Positions 3,162-50,638 of a DNA stretch of 64,000 nt are shown in pieces. The DNA is from Lachnospiraceae bacterium. GTDB taxonomy: Bacteria; Bacillota; Clostridia; Lachnospirales; Lachnospiraceae. The notes below the pieces were generated by a model. The model searched no databases. It saw only the letters and a program-made list of their open reading frames with translations, and had not been told where the DNA came from. The DNA lies in assembly GCA_017500935.1 (NCBI GenBank), contig JAFVXW010000016.1, forward strand, positions 175,495 to 239,494. The letters are read 5' to 3'. Each line of letters begins with the position of its first letter. Position 1 is the stretch's first letter. The position numbers were made by a program, and so were the translations under genes.

Positions 3162-4133
3162 TCACTTTCTTCCAATAAGGTTTTTTTTGCACATTCGAAT
3201 ATCGGGACCGGTCAGTTTACAAAAGTCAAACTGGCTGATGATTCTGGAAAAGGTACGATCCTGATATCTGTTTCTGCAATCTTCCAAAGAAAGATTGGTG
3301 GAAATCAATATGGGTTTTTGGCGCAGCAGACGTTCATTGATGCATGTGAAAAAATGAGCGAGGGTGGCCGGAGTGGCCATCTCTGTACCAAGATCATCGA
3401 TCACAAGCAGGTCACAGTTATAAAGATCGCTGCAGAGAGCCGAAATTTCTTCCTGGGTTTTGTAATTGTAAGCATTGCGTGCAAGGTAATCAAACAGGCT
3501 GGAAGCGCTGAAATACAGAACGGAACAGCCCATTTCGATGCATTCGCGTGCAATACAGTTGGTCAGGAAAGTCTTACCCGTTCCCACTGTACCATAAAAG
3601 AAGAGATTTTGGTAGCTTGTTTTAAAATTAGTGCAAAAATTTTTGCATTTGTTTACTGTCTGGCGATAGGATTCCAGGGTTTCTCCCTGAAAGTATTCGT
3701 AGGACAGGGTATCAAAATTTTCGTTGTCCAGTGTCTTTTGCAGATTGGACTGCTCGTATAAAAGAGAGATCTCTGCCTGACGGAAGCAGTGACATTTCTG
3801 CCCCTGTATGTAGCCTGTGTCTTTGCAGTCCGGACAGTCATATACCGGGGAGAGAAAATCGCTGGGATAACCGTTTGATGTCAGGAGTCTGGCACGGTCC
3901 TGGGAGAGAACCTGCAGCTTTTCTTTCAGGGCAGAGAGCGCACCGGTATCGCCGGCAAGCATCTTTTTTCCCTGGGCAACAGCGATGGAGGCAACAGATT
4001 CATCCAGATGCTGATATCCTTCAACGGTTTCGTAAATATGACGGAGACGCGCTTCCTGCAGATGGCGGTTTTTGGTCTGGCGCTCTTCATACTGTCTCAT
4101 GATGGAATTGTATTGGGTTACGGTCAAAGCCAC
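3162..4133 (-). CDS. DnaC/DnaI-like helicase loader ATPase
   Basis: This 323-residue protein has a charged helical N-terminal region, a zinc-binding Cys cluster (Cys 100, 103, 114, 116), then an AAA+ core. The core has Walker A GTVGTGKT (181-188) and Walker B LLVIDDLG (about 242-249). The layout matches DnaI of Firmicutes, which delivers the replicative helicase onto DNA opened by DnaA. An IstB-like transposition helper is unlikely, because no transposase is near and the partner upstream is a DnaD-domain protein. It starts 11 bases after the end of the DnaD-like gene. Stated function is inferred from domain order and neighbours. Confidence 0.88.
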   Translation of the reverse strand: MALTVTQYNSIMRQYEERQTKNRHLQEARLRHIYETVEGYQHLDESVASIAVAQGKKMLAGDTGALSALKEKLQVLSQDRARLLTSNGYPSDFLSPVYDCPDCKDTGYIQGQKCHCFRQAEISLLYEQSNLQKTLDNENFDTLSYEYFQGETLESYRQTVNKCKNFCTNFKTSYQNLFFYGTVGTGKTFLTNCIARECIEMGCSVLYFSASSLFDYLARNAYNYKTQEEISALCSDLYNCDLLVIDDLGTEMATPATLAHFFTCINERLLRQKPILISTNLSLEDCRNRYQDRTFSRIISQFDFCKLTGPDIRMCKKNLIGRK

Positions 4134-4144
4134 GGTAATTCTCC

Positions 4145-5293
4145 TTAATTCTGTAAGAGTGCCTGTTCAAGAGCGTCAAAATCATAATTGCTGTGCATAA
4201 AACGGTTATATTCCGCCGCAGAGCTTGTGCGCGCAGGCTTGGCAGCCTTGTCTTTCTGGAAGGAGGCATCCAGACCGCTGATATCGGATACATGGTGTAC
4301 GCCTGCTTTATACCAGGAAGTCAGAATGCTGTCTGCATAGGCAAAACGGTGTTTGTCTGTGGCAAGCACGGTGCGGCCGCAGGCTTCCAGGATCACATCG
4401 GTGTCAAAACCGTATTCGCGGCTCCAGCGCAGAATATAGGCTACTTCGTTGCGGGTGGGAGTGCTGGTCTTGCCCAGAGCATTCATCACAGCATAAACAG
4501 TTCTGTCATAGCGGGAAGCGTGTCCCTGTGCTTCAGCCGGGGTGGTGACATTGGCTTCTGCCCAGGCAATGGCAACTTTTTCTATGTAGCGGAAGTCTTT
4601 TTTGCCGCGTTCCACGCAGTACTGCAGCAGATAATCGATCAGATCATCCGAAAAATGCAGGACATCGGAGAAAAACAGAAGAGACTTCATATCTGCAGGA
4701 CTTAATGTGCGTCCAAGATACTGTTCTGCGATAAAAATAAGCTGGGCAGTATTTTCCTGTTCTTTAAATACCTTTAACTGATCCAGCGAATATACCGGCT
4801 TTTCAAAAGAAACAGGAGCACAGACTGCAGCAGCGGTTCCGGAAAAGCTGCCTGTATTGGTCTGTACTGCACTGACCGGTGCTGTATTGGCAGGAATCTC
4901 AGCGGAAACTCTGGGAAGCGTCTGGACCTCAGGCTGCAGTATTGCGGTATCCGGCGCGGAAGGCTGTGAAAACACGGATTCTGCCGCCTGCTGTCTGGAA
5001 GAAAGACGCAGCATACGGATGCCGCACAGGCCGCCGTCGGGTGCATATTCCAGTGCCAGCACACCGCGCTTTTCCCAGTACATGAGTGCACGGATCACAT
5101 CTTTTTCTGTATGGTTGAAAAGATCTGCCATGTCAGAGACGGCGGGAGCGGTATTGGACTGCATCATGCGCAGCAGATAAAGGTATACCTTGATCTGGGC
5201 ATCGTTGGCATCTTTCATATATTCATCTATAAAAATGTTCGGAAGAATGGTTGCGTTCTGGCTGCCATCTCCGGTCAGGGAAATTGTACTCAT
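4145..5293 (-). CDS. DnaD-domain primosome protein
   Basis: The 382-residue product begins MSTISLTGDG at 5293, with GGGGTAAG upstream; a frame extension to 5473 runs through promoter sequence and is rejected. Residues ~20-110 form a winged-helix-like DnaD N-terminal domain (IDEYMKDANDAQIKVYLYLL). A low-complexity Ala/Pro/Gln/Thr linker follows, then two DnaD-like repeats: one around YLGRTLSPADMKSLLFFSD and ending DFRYIEKVAIAWAEANV, the second around TRNEVAYILRWSREYGF and ending YADSILTSWYKAGV. In Firmicutes such proteins (DnaD/DnaB) bridge DnaA at the origin and the helicase loader. Pairing with the DnaC-like gene supports that role. Confidence 0.88.
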   Translation of the reverse strand: MSTISLTGDGSQNATILPNIFIDEYMKDANDAQIKVYLYLLRMMQSNTAPAVSDMADLFNHTEKDVIRALMYWEKRGVLALEYAPDGGLCGIRMLRLSSRQQAAESVFSQPSAPDTAILQPEVQTLPRVSAEIPANTAPVSAVQTNTGSFSGTAAAVCAPVSFEKPVYSLDQLKVFKEQENTAQLIFIAEQYLGRTLSPADMKSLLFFSDVLHFSDDLIDYLLQYCVERGKKDFRYIEKVAIAWAEANVTTPAEAQGHASRYDRTVYAVMNALGKTSTPTRNEVAYILRWSREYGFDTDVILEACGRTVLATDKHRFAYADSILTSWYKAGVHHVSDISGLDASFQKDKAAKPARTSSAAEYNRFMHSNYDFDALEQALLQN

Positions 5294-5332: not shown

Positions 5333-5361
5333 ATTATAGCACACAGGTTTTAAAAAGAAAA
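5333..5361 (-). promoter_or_regulatory. Promoter of the dnaD-dnaC-prs operon
   Basis: On the minus strand a consensus TATAAT (complement of 5333-5338) lies about 40 bases before the dnaD start. The -35 at 17-base spacing is poor (TTTTCT, complement of 5356-5361). A weak -35 would fit an activator- or repressor-controlled promoter. Confidence 0.55.
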
Positions 5362-5408: not shown

Positions 5409-5533
5409 TGTGGAAAATGTGGAAAGTGTGGATGGAAATAAAAAAGCCCGTAAATATCGCAAATTTCCGACAAAAAATATCCACAGTCTGAAACGTGGTT
5501 TTTCCACGCCCAGTCTGTGGATATTGTGGATAA
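5409..5533. other. Array of DnaA-box-like 9-mers
   Basis: Three 9-mers lie end to end: TGTGGAAAA (5409-5417), TGTGGAAAG (5418-5426), TGTGGATGG (5427-5435). Next come ATATCCACA (5477-5485, opposite orientation) and TTTTCCACG (5500-5508). Then two more abut: TGTGGATAT (5516-5524) and TGTGGATAA (5525-5533). The last is the exact complement of the consensus DnaA box TTATCCACA. A one-mismatch box TTATCAACA (5588-5596) sits inside murC. The array is about 50-200 bases upstream of the dnaD promoter. Binding by DnaA is inferred from the match, not shown. Two of the boxes also form the arms of the murC terminator hairpin. Confidence 0.7.
5471..5524 (-). terminator. murC terminator built from box-like arms
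   Basis: ATATCCACAG (5477-5486) and CTGTGGATAT (5515-5524) are perfect complements. An inner stem is CGTGG (5495-5499) with CCACG (5504-5508). On the minus strand the structure ends in six T (complement of 5472-5477), right after the murC stop. Confidence 0.65.
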
Positions 5534-5534
5534 C

Positions 5535-6920
5535 TTATCTGGAAAGCAGGTTTTCGCCGATATTTACTACATCTCCGGCACCCATAGTTATCAACAGGTC
5601 ACCGTTGATACAATTTTCCAAAATAAATTTTTCAATCTCGGAAAATGTATGAAAATAAAAGCATTCCTTGCCGGAATTTTGAATTCTGGACTGAATGTCA
5701 GCGGAACTGATGCCTAAAGTGTCAGTTTCGCGTGCGGCGTAAATGTCAGCAAGAATGACTTTGTCAGCCAGTGTAAGTGCTTTGGCAAAATCATCCAGAA
5801 ATGCCTTGGTGCGGGTGTAGGTGTGAGGCTGGAACACACACCAGAGCGTTTTGTGCGGATAATTGTGTGCGGCATGCAGAGTTGCGGCGATCTCGGTGGG
5901 ATGATGTGCATAGTCATCCACAATGGTGATGCCGTTTATCGTGCCTTTGTACTCAAAACGGCGGTCGGTTCCGTGGAAATGCAAAAGCGCCTGCGCAGCA
6001 GTGTCAATGGGCAGCTTAAGCAGATCGGAAAGCGCCAGGGATGCCAGGGCGTTGAGCACATTGTGTTCGCCGGGAACATTTAAGTGGATCATATGGTCCG
6101 GCAGGTCCTTACGGTGCAGGCAGAAAGTGGCATCCGCCAGATTGTCGTATTCGATATCTGTCGGGTAATAGTCGGAAGAAGGATCCAGACCGAAGGTGAT
6201 CACTTTGCAGGGAAGATCCTGTGTGATCTCCTGATAATTTTCAATGCCGCTGTTAATAATAAGAGCACCGTCTTTCGGGATCAGCTGGGCAAACCGGCGG
6301 AAGGAGCTGCGGATATCTGCAAGATCTTTAAAGAAATCCATGTGGTCTTCTTCTATATTTAAAATAATGCCGATCTTAGGGAAAAAGCTTAAAAAGCTGT
6401 TGGTATATTCACAGGCTTCGGTGACAAACACATCGGATCTGCCGACGCGGATATTGCCGTGAATGGAGCGCAGGATACCGCCTACGGAAATGGTGGGGTC
6501 AGTATTGGCCTGCAGCAGGATGTCAGCTGCCATGGAGGTGGTTGTAGTCTTGCCATGGGTGCCGCTGACTGCGATGGGAGTCTGGTAATTGCGCATCAGC
6601 TGTCCTAAAAAGTCTGCACGTGTCAGTGCAGGGATCTGTCTGCGCACAACTTCCTGAAATTCCGGGTTGTCTGCGTGAACAGCAGCAGTGTATACAACAA
6701 GATCGATATCATCAGTGATATTCTCTGCTTTCTGGGGACGGCCGTAATTGATATGTGCGCCTTGTTGTTCCAAAAGATCGGTCAGGGAGGAACGGTTCCA
6801 GTCAGAACCGGATACTTTAAAGCCTTCTGCCAGCAGAATCTCTGCCAGACCGCTCATGCTGATGCCGCCGATGCCGATAAAATAAACGTGAATGGGATTG
6901 TTGAAATCTACATGATACAT
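5535..6920 (-). CDS. murC: UDP-N-acetylmuramate--L-alanine ligase
   Basis: MurC adds L-Ala to UDP-MurNAc, the first peptide step of peptidoglycan synthesis in the cytoplasm. The 461-residue length is normal. The N-terminal Rossmann motif GIGGISMSGLAEILL is at about 14-28, the ATP loop SGTHGKTTTTSM near 112-123, the EEDHMDFF segment is in the central domain and DDYAHHPTEI opens the C-terminal domain. The start at 6920 (MYHVDFNNP) has AGGAAG upstream; a longer frame to 7106 adds a hydrophobic tail unlike the family. It is monocistronic and is followed by a hairpin terminator. Confidence 0.95.
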   Translation of the reverse strand: MYHVDFNNPIHVYFIGIGGISMSGLAEILLAEGFKVSGSDWNRSSLTDLLEQQGAHINYGRPQKAENITDDIDLVVYTAAVHADNPEFQEVVRRQIPALTRADFLGQLMRNYQTPIAVSGTHGKTTTTSMAADILLQANTDPTISVGGILRSIHGNIRVGRSDVFVTEACEYTNSFLSFFPKIGIILNIEEDHMDFFKDLADIRSSFRRFAQLIPKDGALIINSGIENYQEITQDLPCKVITFGLDPSSDYYPTDIEYDNLADATFCLHRKDLPDHMIHLNVPGEHNVLNALASLALSDLLKLPIDTAAQALLHFHGTDRRFEYKGTINGITIVDDYAHHPTEIAATLHAAHNYPHKTLWCVFQPHTYTRTKAFLDDFAKALTLADKVILADIYAARETDTLGISSADIQSRIQNSGKECFYFHTFSEIEKFILENCINGDLLITMGAGDVVNIGENLLSR

Positions 6921-42403: not shown

Positions 42404-42613
42404 GAGATATCCTCCTGATTAATGATTTGGCGGCATTTCCTGCCGCTTCTTTTGCTGATCCGTACATTCGTTTTTAACATTATACTTCATTTAAAACAGG
42501 CAAACAAGGCGAGAAAATTTGTTTTTTCTGTATTTTTTTATGTTTTTTAAAGCGGAAAACGATATAATCAGGATAAGGAAAAATGACTGAAAATGATACA
42601 GAAAGGATTGCGT

Positions 42614-45061
42614 ATGAAACAGACAGGACGGATTTATCTTAATGACGGCTGGCAGTTTTCGCCGGCATTTGAAGCGGCTATGCTGCAGGCGGATTTTGCC
42701 GCAGATACAATGGAAATGGTGCGGCTTCCCCATACAGTGACAAAAATGCCCTTTCACTATTTTGACGAGCAGATTTATCAGATGGTCAGTGCCTATCGCA
42801 GAGTGATCAGACCGCAGGAGCAGTGGAAGGGAAAACATGTTTTTCTGACGGTGGAAGCGGCAGGTCATGCGGCGGCAGTTTTTTTAAACGGCAATCAGAT
42901 TGCAGAGCATCACTGCGGATACACGGCTTTTACGGTGGATCTGGCAGAGCATCTTCTGTGGGATTGGGACAATGTGCTTGTGATCCGGGTGGACAGCCGG
43001 GAGAACTTAAACCAGCCGCCCTTTGGCAATGTGATCGACTATATGACTTACGGCGGGCTGTACCGCGAAGTATATCTGGATATCCGGGAAAAAAGTTATA
43101 TCCGGGATGTGTTTGCCAAAACAACAGGCATTGAGAGTGCAGACGGGGTATGCGCAAGTGCAGAACTTGTCTGTGAGGTTTCTCTGGAAAATGCAGACGG
43201 ATGCACGCTGCGTCAGGAACTGTATGAAAAAACGGCGGCCGACAGCGAGGACGGCTGCGGTAGTTTTGTTTGTGCGCTGGAAATGGCAGCGGCCGGATCA
43301 AAACGCATGGTACATAAGCTGGAACATGTAAAACTCTGGCACCCGGATCATCCGGCCCTTTATAAACTGCGGACCGTTTTGGTAAAAGACGGTCAGATTC
43401 TGGATGAGACCACTGCGCAGATCGGACTCAGAACCGTGGAATTTAAAGCGGACGGTTTTTATCTTAATGGAAAGAAATTCCGTATCAGGGGCTTAAACCG
43501 TCATCAGAGCTATCCTTATGTGGGATATGCGATGCCTGCCTCCATCCAGCGCCAGGATGCGTATGTTTTGAAAAAGGAGCTGGGGCTGAATGCCGTGCGT
43601 ACCTCCCATTATCCGCAGTCCCATCATTTTATGGATGCCTGTGATGAACTGGGACTATTAGTGTTTACAGAGATTCCGGGCTGGCAGCACATCGGCGATG
43701 AAGCCTGGAAAGCGCAGGCTGTAAAGAATACTGAGGATATGGTGGCACAGTACCGCAATCATCCTTCGATTTTTATGTGGGGTGTGCGGATCAACGAATC
43801 GCAGGATGATGATTCGATGTATCAGCTTACCAACGCGGCAGCCCATGCACTGGATGATACCAGACCGACAGGCGGTGTGCGCTGTATCAAACAAAGCTCC
43901 CTTCTGGAGGATGTTTATACCTACAATGATTTTGTACATGACGGCACCAATGCAGGAACAACTCCGAGAAAAAAAGTGACGCCCGACAGTCAGAAAGGCT
44001 ATATCATTACCGAGTACAACGGTCACATGTTCCCGACAAAGAGTTTTGATGCGGAAGAACACCGCACGGAGCATATGCGGCGGCATGCAGAAGTCGTAAA
44101 CAGCTATTACGGCCGGCAGGATGTGGCAGGCGGTTTTGGCTGGTGCATGGCCGATTATAATACCCATAAGGATTTTGGCAGCGGAGACCGGATCTGCTAT
44201 CACGGGGTACTGGATATGTTCCGCAATCCCAAGCTTGCAGCGGCAGTGTATGCTTCCCAGCAGGATATGCAGGCAGATGATCAAAAGGATGCAGTGGTTT
44301 TGGAGGTTTCCTCATCCATGGATATCGGAGAGCATCCGGCCTGCCTGTCAAAAGGCGTCTATGTGCTCACAAATGCAGACAGCGTGCGTGTATACAAAAA
44401 CGACCAGCTCATCGGGGAGTATGATCGCAGCAGCTCGCCTTACAAAAATCTTCCCCACGGTCCTATCTATATAGAAGATTTTATCGGTGATCTTCTGGAA
44501 AAAGGAGAGGGTATTTCCCATGCTTATGCGGCTGATCTGAAAAAAATCCTGACTTCCGCCAAGAAGCACGGAATGGCACATCTGCCGTTAAAAACCATTC
44601 TGCTTACCGCAAAATGCATGCTGTTCCATGGGCTGAAAATCGCGGATGCGGTATCGATGTATACCAAGTATGTGACAGACTGGGGGACAAATGTGACGGT
44701 TTACCGTTTTGAAGCCATCAAGGACGGTCAGGTTGTCAAAACAGTGGAGAAAAAGCCTGTCAATGCAGTGAAGCTGGATGTGAAAGTGTCACACACTGTT
44801 TTGCAGGAACAAAACACTTACGATACGGCAGCCGTGCGGGTGCGTGCGGTGGATGAATCCGGTGCGGTTCTGCCTTTTTATCAGGAACCGCTGTTTTTGG
44901 AGACGGAAGGACCGATTCGGATCATTGGCTCCTCCTATCTGCAGCTGCGCGGCGGTATGGGCGGAACCTATGTGAAAACCACCGGTGAAAAAGGCCGGGC
45001 AGTCCTGCGGATGCGCTCAGAATGTCAGGAACCGGTGGAGATTGTGTTTGAAGTGATTTAA
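42614..45061 (+). CDS. GH2 family glycoside hydrolase
   Basis: The 815-residue protein starts MKQTGRIYLNDGWQFSPAFE. It has the GH2 order: jelly-roll domain (VEAAGHAAAVFLNGNQIAEH), Ig-like domain, barrel with IRGLNRHQSYPYVGYAM, acid/base Glu in RINESQDD (about residue 399) and nucleophile Glu in IITEYNGH (about 463). Extra C-terminal beta domains follow. No signal peptide is visible, so it acts in the cytoplasm. Whether it cleaves galactosides or glucuronides cannot be read; nearby uronate genes suggest glucuronides but do not prove it. TATAAT is at 42563-42568; the -35 is weak. GAAAGGA precedes the ATG. Confidence 0.85.
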   Translation: MKQTGRIYLNDGWQFSPAFEAAMLQADFAADTMEMVRLPHTVTKMPFHYFDEQIYQMVSAYRRVIRPQEQWKGKHVFLTVEAAGHAAAVFLNGNQIAEHHCGYTAFTVDLAEHLLWDWDNVLVIRVDSRENLNQPPFGNVIDYMTYGGLYREVYLDIREKSYIRDVFAKTTGIESADGVCASAELVCEVSLENADGCTLRQELYEKTAADSEDGCGSFVCALEMAAAGSKRMVHKLEHVKLWHPDHPALYKLRTVLVKDGQILDETTAQIGLRTVEFKADGFYLNGKKFRIRGLNRHQSYPYVGYAMPASIQRQDAYVLKKELGLNAVRTSHYPQSHHFMDACDELGLLVFTEIPGWQHIGDEAWKAQAVKNTEDMVAQYRNHPSIFMWGVRINESQDDDSMYQLTNAAAHALDDTRPTGGVRCIKQSSLLEDVYTYNDFVHDGTNAGTTPRKKVTPDSQKGYIITEYNGHMFPTKSFDAEEHRTEHMRRHAEVVNSYYGRQDVAGGFGWCMADYNTHKDFGSGDRICYHGVLDMFRNPKLAAAVYASQQDMQADDQKDAVVLEVSSSMDIGEHPACLSKGVYVLTNADSVRVYKNDQLIGEYDRSSSPYKNLPHGPIYIEDFIGDLLEKGEGISHAYAADLKKILTSAKKHGMAHLPLKTILLTAKCMLFHGLKIADAVSMYTKYVTDWGTNVTVYRFEAIKDGQVVKTVEKKPVNAVKLDVKVSHTVLQEQNTYDTAAVRVRAVDESGAVLPFYQEPLFLETEGPIRIIGSSYLQLRGGMGGTYVKTTGEKGRAVLRMRSECQEPVEIVFEVI

Positions 45062-45095: not shown

Positions 45096-45518
45096 ATGAG
45101 AAAAAACTTACAGGAACGGATCACAGACGCGGTGACTTTTATGAAAAATCTGGATTTTGCCGCACAGCCTTTGGGAAAATATGAAGTGGATGCAGACTTT
45201 TATTATGTGCTGCAGGCTTATGACAGTAAAACCGAAGAAACTGCCCGTTATGAAGCCCACAGAAAATATGTGGATGTGCAGTTTATCGTGGAGGGATGCG
45301 AACGTATCGACATCGCACCGCTTAACGGACTTGCCGTGGAAACTGATTACGCAGAAGAAAAAGATGTGATGTTTTTACAGGCACCTGCACAGGCGGCACA
45401 GGCAGTGCTGACCGCAGGCGGTTATGTGGTGTTATACCCGGAGGATGCACACAGACCCGGCGTGGCTGTGGATAAACCGGCAGCAGTCAAAAAAATTGTG
45501 GGTAAAGTGCGCGTGTAA
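45096..45518 (+). CDS. YhcH/YjgK/YiaL family protein
   Basis: The 140-residue cupin-like protein has DADFYYVLQAYDSKTEE, EAHRKYVDVQFIVEG and YPEDAHRPGVAV. His and acidic residues form a likely metal site (HRKYVD, EDAHRP). EbgC is a family member that accompanies the GH2 enzyme EbgA, so pairing with the GH2 gene 34 bases upstream is meaningful. Other members are linked to sialic acid use. AAGGAGAG precedes the ATG. The function here is inferred. Confidence 0.85.
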   Translation: MRKNLQERITDAVTFMKNLDFAAQPLGKYEVDADFYYVLQAYDSKTEETARYEAHRKYVDVQFIVEGCERIDIAPLNGLAVETDYAEEKDVMFLQAPAQAAQAVLTAGGYVVLYPEDAHRPGVAVDKPAAVKKIVGKVRV

Positions 45519-46179: not shown

Positions 46180-46944
46180 TTATAAGGTTGCACCGAAATC
46201 GGTAACCAGTACCTGACCGGTGATCGCACGGGATTCATCACTTGCAAGGAACAGAAGAACATTTGCAACGTCTGCAGGCATGCAGGGGCTTACGGAAAGG
46301 TTCATATGCTTTCTCATCTGGCCGAACATGTTCTGGTCAAGAGTTGCGGGATTGGTGTTCATGGTCATAGGAGTGATGATGGTGCTGGGATTTACAGAGT
46401 TGCATCTGATGCCGGTACCGGTGAAACGGATTGCGGTGTGCTTGGTCAGACCGATAACAGCAGCTTTGCTGGTTGCATATGCTGCGCCGCCGGTACCGAA
46501 TGCGCCTGCAACGGAGTCAAGGTTGATGATGGAACCGGAATTGTTTTTCATCATTTCTTTTACAACGGCTCTGGTGCAGTACATGCAGCCCTTGGTGTTG
46601 ATGCCAAGAACCCATTCCAGATCTTCTTCTTCAAAACGTTCGATGGGCTTTAAGCCTTCTTCCAGAACGCCTGCGTTGTTAACCAGAACATCAACTCTGC
46701 CGTAGGTTTCAACAACCTTGGCAACCATGTTTTCAACCTGTTCTGCATTGGAAACATCGGTAGAGATGGGCAGAACTTCGCCGCCGTTTTCTCTGATCTT
46801 TGCAGCAACTTCTTCAAGCTGAGGCATTCTGCGCGCGGTGATAACAACCTTTGCGCCTTCTTTTGCGAATAATTCAGCAGTAGCAGCACCAACGCCGGAG
46901 TTACCGCCGGTAATAATAGCAACTTTTCCGTCTAAACGTCCCAT
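46180..46944 (-). CDS. SDR oxidoreductase
   Basis: The 254-residue protein has IITGGNSGVGAATAE (cofactor), NNAGVLEEG, LDSVAGAFG and catalytic YATSKAA. The C-terminus ends TGQVLVTDFGATL. It resembles the 3-oxoacyl-ACP reductase/glucose dehydrogenase branch, with cofactor preference not readable. It is a single gene. GAAAGGAG precedes the ATG. Its codons favour TTC/AAC and GCA strongly, suggesting high expression. Confidence 0.85.
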   Translation of the reverse strand: MGRLDGKVAIITGGNSGVGAATAELFAKEGAKVVITARRMPQLEEVAAKIRENGGEVLPISTDVSNAEQVENMVAKVVETYGRVDVLVNNAGVLEEGLKPIERFEEEDLEWVLGINTKGCMYCTRAVVKEMMKNNSGSIINLDSVAGAFGTGGAAYATSKAAVIGLTKHTAIRFTGTGIRCNSVNPSTIITPMTMNTNPATLDQNMFGQMRKHMNLSVSPCMPADVANVLLFLASDESRAITGQVLVTDFGATL

Positions 46945-48182: not shown

Positions 48183-49877
48183 ATGAAGCAGATTTATTAT
48201 AATGGAAAGGTTTATACCGGCAGTCTGCCGCTGGTGCAGGCGTTTGCAGTGGAAGACGGCCAATTTGTGTTTGCCGGATCTGATGAAGAAGCAAAAAAAC
48301 TGGCACAGCAGCCGGATCAGCTGGTGGATCTGGAAGGCAGATTTGTCTGCAGCGGTTTCAATGACAGCCACATGCATCTTCTGGGACTGGGAAAAATGCT
48401 GACGCAGGCGAATCTGGCAGCACATACGGACAGTCTGGAAGGAATGCTTTCTTATTTGAAAGAATATGCAGCTTTAAAAGAAGATGCATCGGAAGCTGAA
48501 AGCAGTTCATGGATATTGGGCCGCGGCTGGAATCAGGATTATTTTGCGGATGCAGACAGGATGCCGGACAGACATGATCTGGACAAAGTGTCTGCGCAGC
48601 GGCCGGTGTGTATCATCCGCGCCTGCGGACATTGTCTGGCAGTCAACACGAAGGCGCTGGAGCTTTTGGGCATAACAAAAGAGACACCCCAGCCGGACGG
48701 CGGGCGCATCGGTATGGAGAAGCTGGAAAGCAGCGGTACAAAAGGCAGTGATATCAAAAAAGGCGAAACAGAGCTGTTTCCTGACGGCCGTTTTTATGAC
48801 AATGCCATGGAGTTAGTTTATGCCGCCATCCCGGCACCGGAATTGGAGGAGATCAAAGCTATGATCCGCGCAGCCTGCCGGATGCTCAATTCCTATGGCA
48901 TCACCAGCTGTCAGTCAGATGATTACTGTGTATTTGCCAATGTTTCGCCGGAAGTGATCAATCAGGCTTTTGCAGAACTGGAAAAAGCAGGAGAACTGAC
49001 TGTGCGTGTCTATGAACAGAGCAATCTCACCACGCTGACAGAATTGCAGAAGTTTGTGGAGGCAGGAAATGTAACCGGCACCGGCAGCGATCATTTTCGT
49101 TTTGGTCCTTTAAAAATGCTGGGAGACGGCGCGCTCGGCGCAAGAACGGCATTTTTGTCACAGCCCTATGCCGATGAACCGGCAACCTGCGGCATTCCGG
49201 TTTTTTCAAGGGAAACCTTTGAGGAAATGATCGGATATGCCCATGCAAACGGTATGCAGGCAGCAGTACATACCATCGGCGATGCCTGTCTGGACTGGGT
49301 GCTTTCCGCTTATGAAAAAGCACTGCAGGCACAGCCGCGCAAAGATCACCGTCACGGTATTGTGCATTGTCAGATCACCCGGCCTGATCAGCTGCAGAAG
49401 ATACAGGATCTGAATCTTCATGTCTATGCGCAGAGCATTTTTCTGGATTATGATATTAATATAGTAGAAAGCCGTGTGGGAAAGGAGCTGGCATCCACCA
49501 GTTATTCCTGGAAAACGCTGGCAGAAGGCGGCGTGCGTGTCTCAAACGGTTCCGACTGCCCGGTGGAGCTTCCCGATGTGATGGCAGGAATCCAGTGCAG
49601 TGTGACCAGAAGACGGCTGAAGGATACGAAAGAACAGCAGGCGTATCTGGAAAAAGAAGCATTTTCCGTGCAGGAGGCGCTGGATAGCTTTACAAAAAAC
49701 GGAGCCTATGCCAGCTTTGAGGAAAATAAAAAGGGACAGATCAAAGAGGGCATGCTGGCAGATTTTACCGTGCTTGCAAAAAATCCCTTTGAAACCGATC
49801 CTTATGCATTAAAAGACATTAAAATCTGCAGTGTTTATCTGGGCGGAAAAGAAATATACAGCGGAGGACAGAATTGA
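48183..49877 (+). CDS. YtcJ-type amidohydrolase
   Basis: The 564-residue protein has metal motifs in order: FNDSHMHLLG, then HTIGDACLD, HCQITRP and NGSDCPVELPDVM. The layout is that of the YtcJ/exoenzyme-regulatory amidohydrolases, cytoplasmic hydrolases of unknown substrates (amide or lactam bonds). A beta-sandwich is formed by both termini. AAGGAG precedes the ATG. Its stop overlaps the GDPD start by one base (TGATG). Confidence 0.88.
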   Translation: MKQIYYNGKVYTGSLPLVQAFAVEDGQFVFAGSDEEAKKLAQQPDQLVDLEGRFVCSGFNDSHMHLLGLGKMLTQANLAAHTDSLEGMLSYLKEYAALKEDASEAESSSWILGRGWNQDYFADADRMPDRHDLDKVSAQRPVCIIRACGHCLAVNTKALELLGITKETPQPDGGRIGMEKLESSGTKGSDIKKGETELFPDGRFYDNAMELVYAAIPAPELEEIKAMIRAACRMLNSYGITSCQSDDYCVFANVSPEVINQAFAELEKAGELTVRVYEQSNLTTLTELQKFVEAGNVTGTGSDHFRFGPLKMLGDGALGARTAFLSQPYADEPATCGIPVFSRETFEEMIGYAHANGMQAAVHTIGDACLDWVLSAYEKALQAQPRKDHRHGIVHCQITRPDQLQKIQDLNLHVYAQSIFLDYDINIVESRVGKELASTSYSWKTLAEGGVRVSNGSDCPVELPDVMAGIQCSVTRRRLKDTKEQQAYLEKEAFSVQEALDSFTKNGAYASFEENKKGQIKEGMLADFTVLAKNPFETDPYALKDIKICSVYLGGKEIYSGGQN

Positions 49878-50638
49878 TGAAGCTTACATGGGAAAACAAA
49901 ATGATGGTGGCCGGACATCGCGGAGACTGCTATAACTGGCCGGAAAATACGATGGAAGGATTCAGGGCAGCCATCGAAGCGGGCGCTGACATGATCGAAA
50001 CGGATGTGCGTCTGACCAAAGACAATGTGCTGATCCTGATGCATGATGACAAAGTGGACAGAACAGCGGATGGCAGCGGTTTTGTAAAAGAGAAGACCTT
50101 TGCAGAAATGCGCAGGCTGAATGTCGGTGAGAGAAGCAATCCCATGCAGGTGCCCACGCTGGAAGAGCTGCTTGTGCTTCTGAAAGAAAAGGATGTGCTT
50201 TTAAATCTGGAGATCAAGGAATATTACAGTGCAGAAAATGTGGACAGATGCCATCTTTGCATCGATGAATGTGTAAAACTCATTGAAAAATATGATTTTT
50301 CCAAAAAAATGCTTTTCAACAGTTTTGATGCGCATGTGCTGGAATATATCCACAAAAAATACGGCGGCAGATATTTGCTTCACGGTTTTTATCCTTATTC
50401 CATTATGCACAATGTGGAAGGCAATCCGGATGAGTATCTGTATTGTGCCTGCATTTTTGATGACAGAAACAAACTGCTTTATGAAGAGCTCAATGCCAAG
50501 GGGATCGAACCCTGGATCGGTGCGGGTGTGACCAGAAAAACGCATTTAAAGGAATGCTTTGAGATGGGAGCAAAGCTGGTGACCACCAACAATACCGCAG
50601 ACTGCATCGCAAAATTAGACGGCGTCGGAGCAAGATAA
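49877..50638 (+). CDS. Glycerophosphodiester phosphodiesterase
   Basis: The 253-residue protein shows the GDPD signature AGHRGDCYNWPENTMEGF, IETDVRLTKD and MHDDKVDRTADGSG (His, Glu, Asp, His), then LLNLEIKEYYS and a C-terminal WIGAGVTRK barrel strand. It frees glycerol-3-phosphate from glycerophosphodiesters. There is no signal peptide, so it acts in the cytoplasm. The ATG at 49877 overlaps the previous stop; the TTG at 49874 is an unlikely start. Confidence 0.92.
   Translation: MKLTWENKMMVAGHRGDCYNWPENTMEGFRAAIEAGADMIETDVRLTKDNVLILMHDDKVDRTADGSGFVKEKTFAEMRRLNVGERSNPMQVPTLEELLVLLKEKDVLLNLEIKEYYSAENVDRCHLCIDECVKLIEKYDFSKKMLFNSFDAHVLEYIHKKYGGRYLLHGFYPYSIMHNVEGNPDEYLYCACIFDDRNKLLYEELNAKGIEPWIGAGVTRKTHLKECFEMGAKLVTTNNTADCIAKLDGVGAR

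Follow-up and report, generated by a model that had tools for sequence, protein, structure and literature searches.

The DNA at the junction of murC and a dnaD-like gene in a Lachnospiraceae bacterium carries a dense array of DnaA-box-like 9-mers, and we consider it probable (about 0.7) that this array serves as a conserved element through which bound DnaA regulates the dnaD–dnaI operon in the order Lachnospirales. We infer both the binding of DnaA and its effect on dnaD–dnaI transcription from sequence arrangement and conservation. The stretch analysed, referred to here as the window, comprises 64,000 nucleotides at the end of a 239-kb contig (C84:175495-239494) in a 3.56-Mb draft genome. Three genes follow one another on the minus strand: murC (5535..6920, 461 aa, Mur ligase domains), the 3' end of which holds part of the element, a dnaD-like gene (4145..5293, 382 aa, Pfam DnaB_2, 2.8e-40) and a gene for a DnaI/DnaC-like helicase-loader AAA+ ATPase (3162..4133, 323 aa, IstB 4.2e-16 and Bac_DnaA 1.8e-9). 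These Pfam domain matches agree with the gene calls of the first-pass annotation. The closest DnaD proteins among named genomes were mostly labelled Lachnospiraceae, several of them Eisenbergiella. The dnaA gene lies on another contig (C83), with one box cluster upstream and another between dnaA and dnaN, and, within the limits of the draft assembly, the earlier description of the array as far from any dnaA gene is correct. Because oriC lies with dnaA, dnaN and their box clusters on contig C83, the array was ruled out as oriC. Among 12 genomes tested, dnaA and the dnaD locus shared one contig in nine, at a distance of 0.10-0.67 Mb (taken for G114 across the contig ends, a circle being assumed).

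Eight DnaA-box-like 9-mers lie within 5409-5596 (188 bp) and form the densest cluster of the window. Re-reading of the sequence bore out the positions first given, namely seven boxes in 125 bases and an eighth in murC, together with the runs of three and of two boxes placed end to end. The three minus-strand boxes nearest dnaD, which we call module B (5409..5435), have a 9-bp period and consist of TTTTCCACA (5409-5417), CTTTCCACA (5418-5426) and CCATCCACA (5427-5435), the last two with two mismatches each. At the murC end, box 1 of module A is the perfect consensus TTATCCACA (5525..5533, minus strand), as had been claimed, 1 nt past the murC stop codon and end to end with box 2, ATATCCACA (5516..5524, minus strand). 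Between the modules lie an inverted box, again ATATCCACA (5477..5485, plus strand), and a weak box-like 9-mer inside a hairpin, TTTTCCACG, with two mismatches (5500..5508, plus strand); 9-mers resembling the latter were found in 5 of 11 relatives within the genus, the level at which this comparison was made. The eighth box, TTATCAACA (5588..5596, plus strand), is inverted and lies within the murC coding sequence at codons Leu-Leu-Ile-Thr. The array gave the best 200-bp cluster score of the window, 14, against a mean best score of 5.1, never above 7, when the window was resampled 200 times under a Markov-1 model. Nine copies of the exact core doublet TGTGGANNNTGTGGA are present in the 3.56-Mb draft genome, three of them inside the array. 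At least three boxes at an average distance below 100 bp, the definition of a DnaA-box cluster in the covered part of PMC7561715, are present here. Elsewhere in the window, the second-best cluster (seven boxes with at most two mismatches, score 9) is found at 50239-50411 within the open reading frame 49874-50638. A perfect TTATCCACA and TTACCCACA, 30 bp apart, are found at 45467-45505 between the open reading frames 42593-45061 and 46180-46944, around which the listing covered frames of at least 180 aa.

The array was then compared across the genus, family, order and class. All 13 genus genomes, the window's own included, had a match to the dnaD gene, and 12 of the 13 had the array. In the remaining one, G003 (L031/L047), no good box was detected in the 230 nt between the contig start and dnaD, where module B would be expected; this stretch is repeat-like, reflecting either an assembly break or a real loss. 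The family was sampled with one genome per genus, and DnaD was found in 148 of 150; the other two, G032 (67% complete) and G045, had no DnaD match and no clear MurC. Loci were read for 130 of the 148 DnaD-bearing genera (30 including the window's own, plus 100), and tblastn placed murC upstream of dnaD in 129, the exception being L249 in G087. At least three boxes were present within 300 nt after the murC stop in 118 of the 129, with a mean of 5.2 boxes per 300 nt, compared with 0.79 in an inner stretch of murC and 0.17 in base-shuffled sequence. The order sample comprised 29 loci beyond the window's own, drawn from 55 matching genomes and including three from the family; 24 of the 29 had at least three boxes in 250 bp and 26 showed murC. 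Matches came from 64 of 79 class-sample genomes, and among the 27 returned dnaD loci lying outside the order none had murC within 1.5-kb flanks or more than two boxes per 250 bp. The first-pass annotation had called for a comparison across relatives, and the array proved to be kept at genus and family level and across much of the order. These results suggest that the element is characteristic of Lachnospirales.

Across the family, the boxes fall into the two modules seen in the window. Module A has a fixed position relative to the murC stop and consists of two head-to-tail boxes 9 bp apart, often with a third box at +21 to +26 and often with an inverted box at about +48. Further downstream, module B comprises at least two boxes in a 9-bp tandem. 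Under a strict box definition, the 129 family loci included 88 with the pair at the stop, 80 with the downstream 9-bp tandem and 75 with an inverted box at +35 to +56 past the stop; under a relaxed definition the pair was counted in 93 of 126, three loci having been dropped where the codon motif was not found. Across the 91 family genera examined that have the pair, conservation at each base of box 1 was 92-100%. The boxes of both modules share a similar motif with those of 13 dnaA-region loci of the same family. Their packing differs: 226 of 331 close spacings (same strand, up to 14 bp) at murC–dnaD were 9 bp, compared with 1 of 15 at 12 dnaA loci, three of which are truncated immediately before dnaA where the contig begins, and where 11-12 bp prevailed (10 of 15). 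The end-to-end packing picked out in the earlier note as unusual is thus special to this locus in this comparison; the cooperative DnaA filament that the note read from it would be a possible consequence.

The box inside murC was exact in 99 of 126 family genera and in 13 of 25 order-sample loci, but in none of the 28 class-sample genomes that lie outside the order and for which loci were retrieved (59 genomes matched). Measured between starts, its distance to the pair at the stop was 62-64 nt in 92 of the 93 genomes having both. In 106 genomes with the pair, synonymous identity at the Leu, Ile and Thr codons was 0.84, 0.98 and 0.76 (expected 0.30, 0.45 and 0.36), whereas it was 0.36, 0.45 and 0.40 (expected 0.24, 0.38 and 0.30) in 48 genomes without the pair and 0.29, 0.18 and 0.28 (expected 0.31, 0.27 and 0.30) outside the order. 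Synonymous constraint peaks at the murC box where the pair sits at the stop. The Ile codon was ATA in all 93 family genera with the pair and in 15 of 33 without it (Fisher 3.7e-13); within the order sample alone, the association between the pair and an exact murC box was not significant (p 0.43). The first-pass annotation had placed the eighth box correctly in murC but rated it as a near-match, a rating that falls short of the codon-level constraint: the box is a true part of the element and appears to constrain the murC codons. Constraint is also seen around it. Within the genus, the last ~30 murC codons are constrained, with a peak of 0.85 against 0.60 in a 15-codon stretch, and an AT-rich stretch of the murC 3' end is synonymously constrained in the genus and weakly outside it. 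Family-wide, further synonymous constraint beyond the DnaA box is found at Ala-Gly, Val and Glu codons at about 5540-5625.

The same DNA contains a likely intrinsic terminator of murC (5471..5524, minus strand), recognised by its fold, by a terminator scan and in relatives. The 5' and 3' arms of its stem are module A box 2 (5516-5524) and the inverted box (5477-5485), which together form an inverted repeat. The region 5465-5535 folds at -31.2 kcal/mol (z -6.4), and a terminator-like site was also found there by the scan. Where both arms were present (74 genomes), an average of 4.0 of the five bases within the boxes paired, compared with 2.28 when partners were dealt among genomes (highest of 2000 deals, 2.72). 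At least five T were present in 67 of the 74 within the 10 nt counted from base 6 of the inverted box (the T of the box itself included), so that a stem-loop followed by a T-run, as in an intrinsic terminator, is found. Since box 2 and the inverted box form the stem, two of the seven boxes have a double use, which the first-pass annotation had missed, and the terminator alone may be what maintains the inverted box. Directly past the terminator T-run and upstream of dnaD, TTGTCGAAAAA occurs in G001, G005, G006, G007, G009, G011 and G012, and the window carries a changed version of it; we take this sequence to resemble a Spo0A box.

Downstream of module B, a scan for a sigma-70 consensus pair found no promoter, and an extended -10 motif was used instead. 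In the window, the putative dnaD promoter has, as read from the sequence, an extended -10, TGTGCTATAAT, at 5333..5338 (minus strand) with no good -35, at a distance of 70 nt from module B. We analysed 155 genomes of the family and order samples for the last 9-bp tandem (module B, or the module A pair where B was missing) followed at 30-110 nt by a TGnTATAAT-like motif. The 9-bp tandem was missing from 24 genomes, 33 had a tandem but no -10 motif in range, and 98 of the 131 with a tandem could be measured. The tandem-to-(-10) distance was within 1 nt of 49, 59, 69 or 79 in 66 of these 98, and in this share of the measurable genomes, from the 155 analysed, the boxes thus hold a conserved place relative to the putative promoter. 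Among 48 non-overlapping sister pairs from a MurC tree, 26 differed by at least 4 nt and the differences clustered near 10, 20 and 30, although five were exactly 9, the change expected if a single box were gained or lost. The cosine score of the sister pairs was 0.65 at 10 bp against 0.33 at 9 bp, and none of 20000 jittered sets was as periodic; the promoters were called by motif, and this test is not fully blind, since the period was chosen after an earlier spacing analysis. The spacing between modules A and B also showed a period, of 11 bp, in the raw data (R 0.6, n=72), which was gone in sister contrasts (27 changed pairs, p 0.23), and a loop between A and B is accordingly unsupported.

Loci in which the layout is broken help to separate a tie to murC from a tie to dnaD. 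The murC–dnaD gap was measured in the 79 of 129 family loci with a dnaD start found; six had a gap of 0-64 nt with no box in it, and none of these six kept the murC box. In 20 family genera the first tandem stood more than 20 nt past the murC stop, 12 of them without an exact murC box and eight with it, and the proposal that displacement of the array mostly goes with loss of the murC box was withdrawn. Five of 13 family genera lacking a tandem keep the exact murC box. In G087, no murC was present in the 2.5 kb upstream of dnaD, and two 9-bp box triplets, partly degenerate, were seen by eye before a TATACT upstream of dnaD. In G164 (L269, from another family of the order), ~1 kb is inserted between murC and the array, which adjoins dnaD; the murC of this genome has no box and, by eye, ends in another hairpin. 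The opposite arrangement was found in G042 (L212), where an open frame of ~516 codons, transporter-like by eye, lies between the array and dnaD. There the array stays with murC, which counts against a strict tie to dnaD.

A search for tandem boxes in 12 genomes revealed a second recurrent site, consisting of a box, 44 nt and two end-to-end boxes. With at most two mismatches this pattern was found in 69 of 150 family genera, in one copy each except for one genome with two, while a reversed control pattern matched none of the 150. It occurred in 4 of 245 class-sample genomes, two of them of the window's family, one being the window's own. In 15 of 30 loci examined (29 genomes), the next open frame downstream was hpf-like, identified by eye and presumably encoding a ribosome hibernation factor, and started 278-476 nt from the first base of the element. 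In the window's own genome the element lies upstream of the hpf-like gene (L386, G000:C53:34000-34070); the other loci are among L363-L372 and L376-L395, and some lie near genes that appear mecA-like by eye. The finding of a second recurrent element supports the idea that several conserved DnaA-box elements exist in Lachnospiraceae.

Control of the dnaD–dnaI promoter by DnaA is favoured because the last tandem is helically phased to the -10 and because in G087 and G164, whose dnaD is separated from murC, boxes adjoin dnaD. An upstream regulator, unlike a mere sink, would require phasing to a promoter that combines an extended -10 with a poor -35, which again points to DnaA acting on dnaD–dnaI. 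The suggestion in the first-pass annotation that DnaA controls the supply of its own loading partners is favoured by the same observations, with G042 as a counter-case. We propose that a DnaA assembly would be held beside the promoter by module A, with the inverted box in murC, the two boxes at the stop and in many cases a further one at +21 to +26, together with module B, whose two or three boxes lie end to end and usually ~50-80 bp upstream of the extended -10. The direction of the effect is the least certain part of this proposal, and we lean only slightly towards activation from upstream rather than repression. If DnaA activates, its rise would lead to more loading partners; DnaD is reported, in the part of PMC5295017 covered, to inhibit cooperative DnaA binding in B. 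subtilis, and activation of dnaD would then make a balancing loop. Titration of DnaA may be a by-product. A strict reading is opposed by G003 without a good box, by the 24 of 155 genomes without a tandem and by the 33 more without an extended -10. A bolder version, which we regard as possible but doubtful, is an order-wide switch with its own 9-bp DnaA register and a murC-coded site that would set loader supply to DnaA activity, in a homeostatic loop tying initiation to the end of the murC transcript, and that would, with the second element, form a Lachnospiraceae-specific DnaA network outside oriC.

The array might instead serve mainly to soak up free DnaA near the origin, a role proposed for the six DnaA-box clusters of B. 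subtilis, its place beside dnaD being incidental, as the first-pass annotation had also considered. Such a sink would account for the many good boxes, for the location of the locus 0.10-0.67 Mb away from dnaA wherever both shared a contig (9 of 12 genomes), for the second conserved cluster elsewhere in the genome and for the array that stayed with murC in G042, and deletion of six clusters in B. subtilis leads to early initiation (PMC5295017 and PMC13220808, in the parts covered). It would, however, need neither helical phase to a promoter nor a murC partner box at exactly 62 nt, and it leaves unexplained the boxes beside dnaD in G087 and G164 with murC away and the 27 dnaD loci outside the order without boxes; we therefore judge it unlikely, though deserving some weight. 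That a protein other than DnaA reads TTATCCACA at this locus is suggested by the rarity of 9-bp packing at dnaA loci, but the box motif resembles that of the dnaA-locus boxes and we know of no other reader of this motif, which makes such a protein a quite improbable candidate.

The opposed orientation of boxes at a fixed spacing (the murC box and the pair, 62-64 nt start to start) recalls boxes I and II of DARS, which are likewise opposed in the portion of PMC8682772 covered, and would fit a DARS- or datA-like locus where exchange or inactivation acts on the ATP/ADP state of DnaA. Here, however, the opposed boxes are either 53 nt apart (the murC box and the pair) or the arms of a terminator, and the promoter phasing is left unexplained, so that we give this reading very little credence. 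Still less probable is that the inverted repeat past murC merely happens to resemble DnaA boxes as a by-product of termination: the stem of box 2 and the inverted box, the pairing of its inner bases across genomes and the T-run speak for it, yet it explains two of the eight boxes, while box 1, the murC box and module B lie outside the stem and are conserved, and genera with a short gap retain boxes although they lack the inverted arm. The idea of a second unwinding site or a cryptic origin, to which the AT-rich, synonymously constrained murC end adjoining the boxes in the genus had drawn attention, was dropped as exceedingly improbable, since that stretch is constrained mainly in the genus and weakly beyond it, and box clusters flank dnaA as usual. 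Taken together, regulation of dnaD–dnaI by DnaA bound at the array is the reading that we prefer.

If so, the element would give a concrete control point for replication initiation in most of the sampled Lachnospiraceae genera, with ~130 natural variants (moved, lost or split) available for comparison, and it offers a clear case of a coding sequence apparently constrained by a replication-initiator site. For C. difficile, the sole relative from the Clostridia dealt with in the literature covered, the regulation of DnaA activity is stated to be unknown (PMC7561715). We recognised no description of DnaA boxes at murC–dnaD in the open-licence literature, of which coverage was partial. A term search of the available text of a review of DnaA as a transcription factor (PMC8203912) returned no dnaD, dnaI or 'helicase loader'; dnaN, dnaQ and dnaB are named in it.

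Several known systems resemble the element in part. B. subtilis has six DnaA-box clusters outside oriC, the joint loss of which causes early initiation (covered parts of PMC5295017 and PMC13220808), and the present array is likewise a DnaA-box cluster outside oriC. The descriptions of those clusters that were covered make no mention of the features found here, namely packing at 9 bp, a box within a gene and overlap with a terminator. According to a figure legend in the part of PMC4447404 covered, the ten strongest DnaA regions of B. subtilis are dnaA, dnaA-dnaN, ywcI/vpr, gcp/ydiF, trmE/jag, ywlC/ywlB, yqeG/sda, yydA, codV and rplB, a set that excludes murC, dnaD and the dnaB-dnaI genes. The sda promoter of B. 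subtilis also has a DnaA-box array upstream, and individual boxes are needed there for full activation by DnaA (same source, as covered); in the present case, the target genes are replication partners and the two-module layout reaches into the upstream gene. E. coli DARS1, DARS2 and datA are, in the passages of PMC8682772 covered, conserved non-oriC box loci of fixed arrangement with opposing boxes, the DARS core being three uniquely arranged boxes with I and II opposed, and the murC–dnaD element differs from them in its promoter phasing. Finally, the oriC clusters at dnaA in the same family have a similar motif but a spacing mostly of 11-12 bp, whereas the boxes at murC–dnaD are packed at 9 bp beside no dnaA gene.
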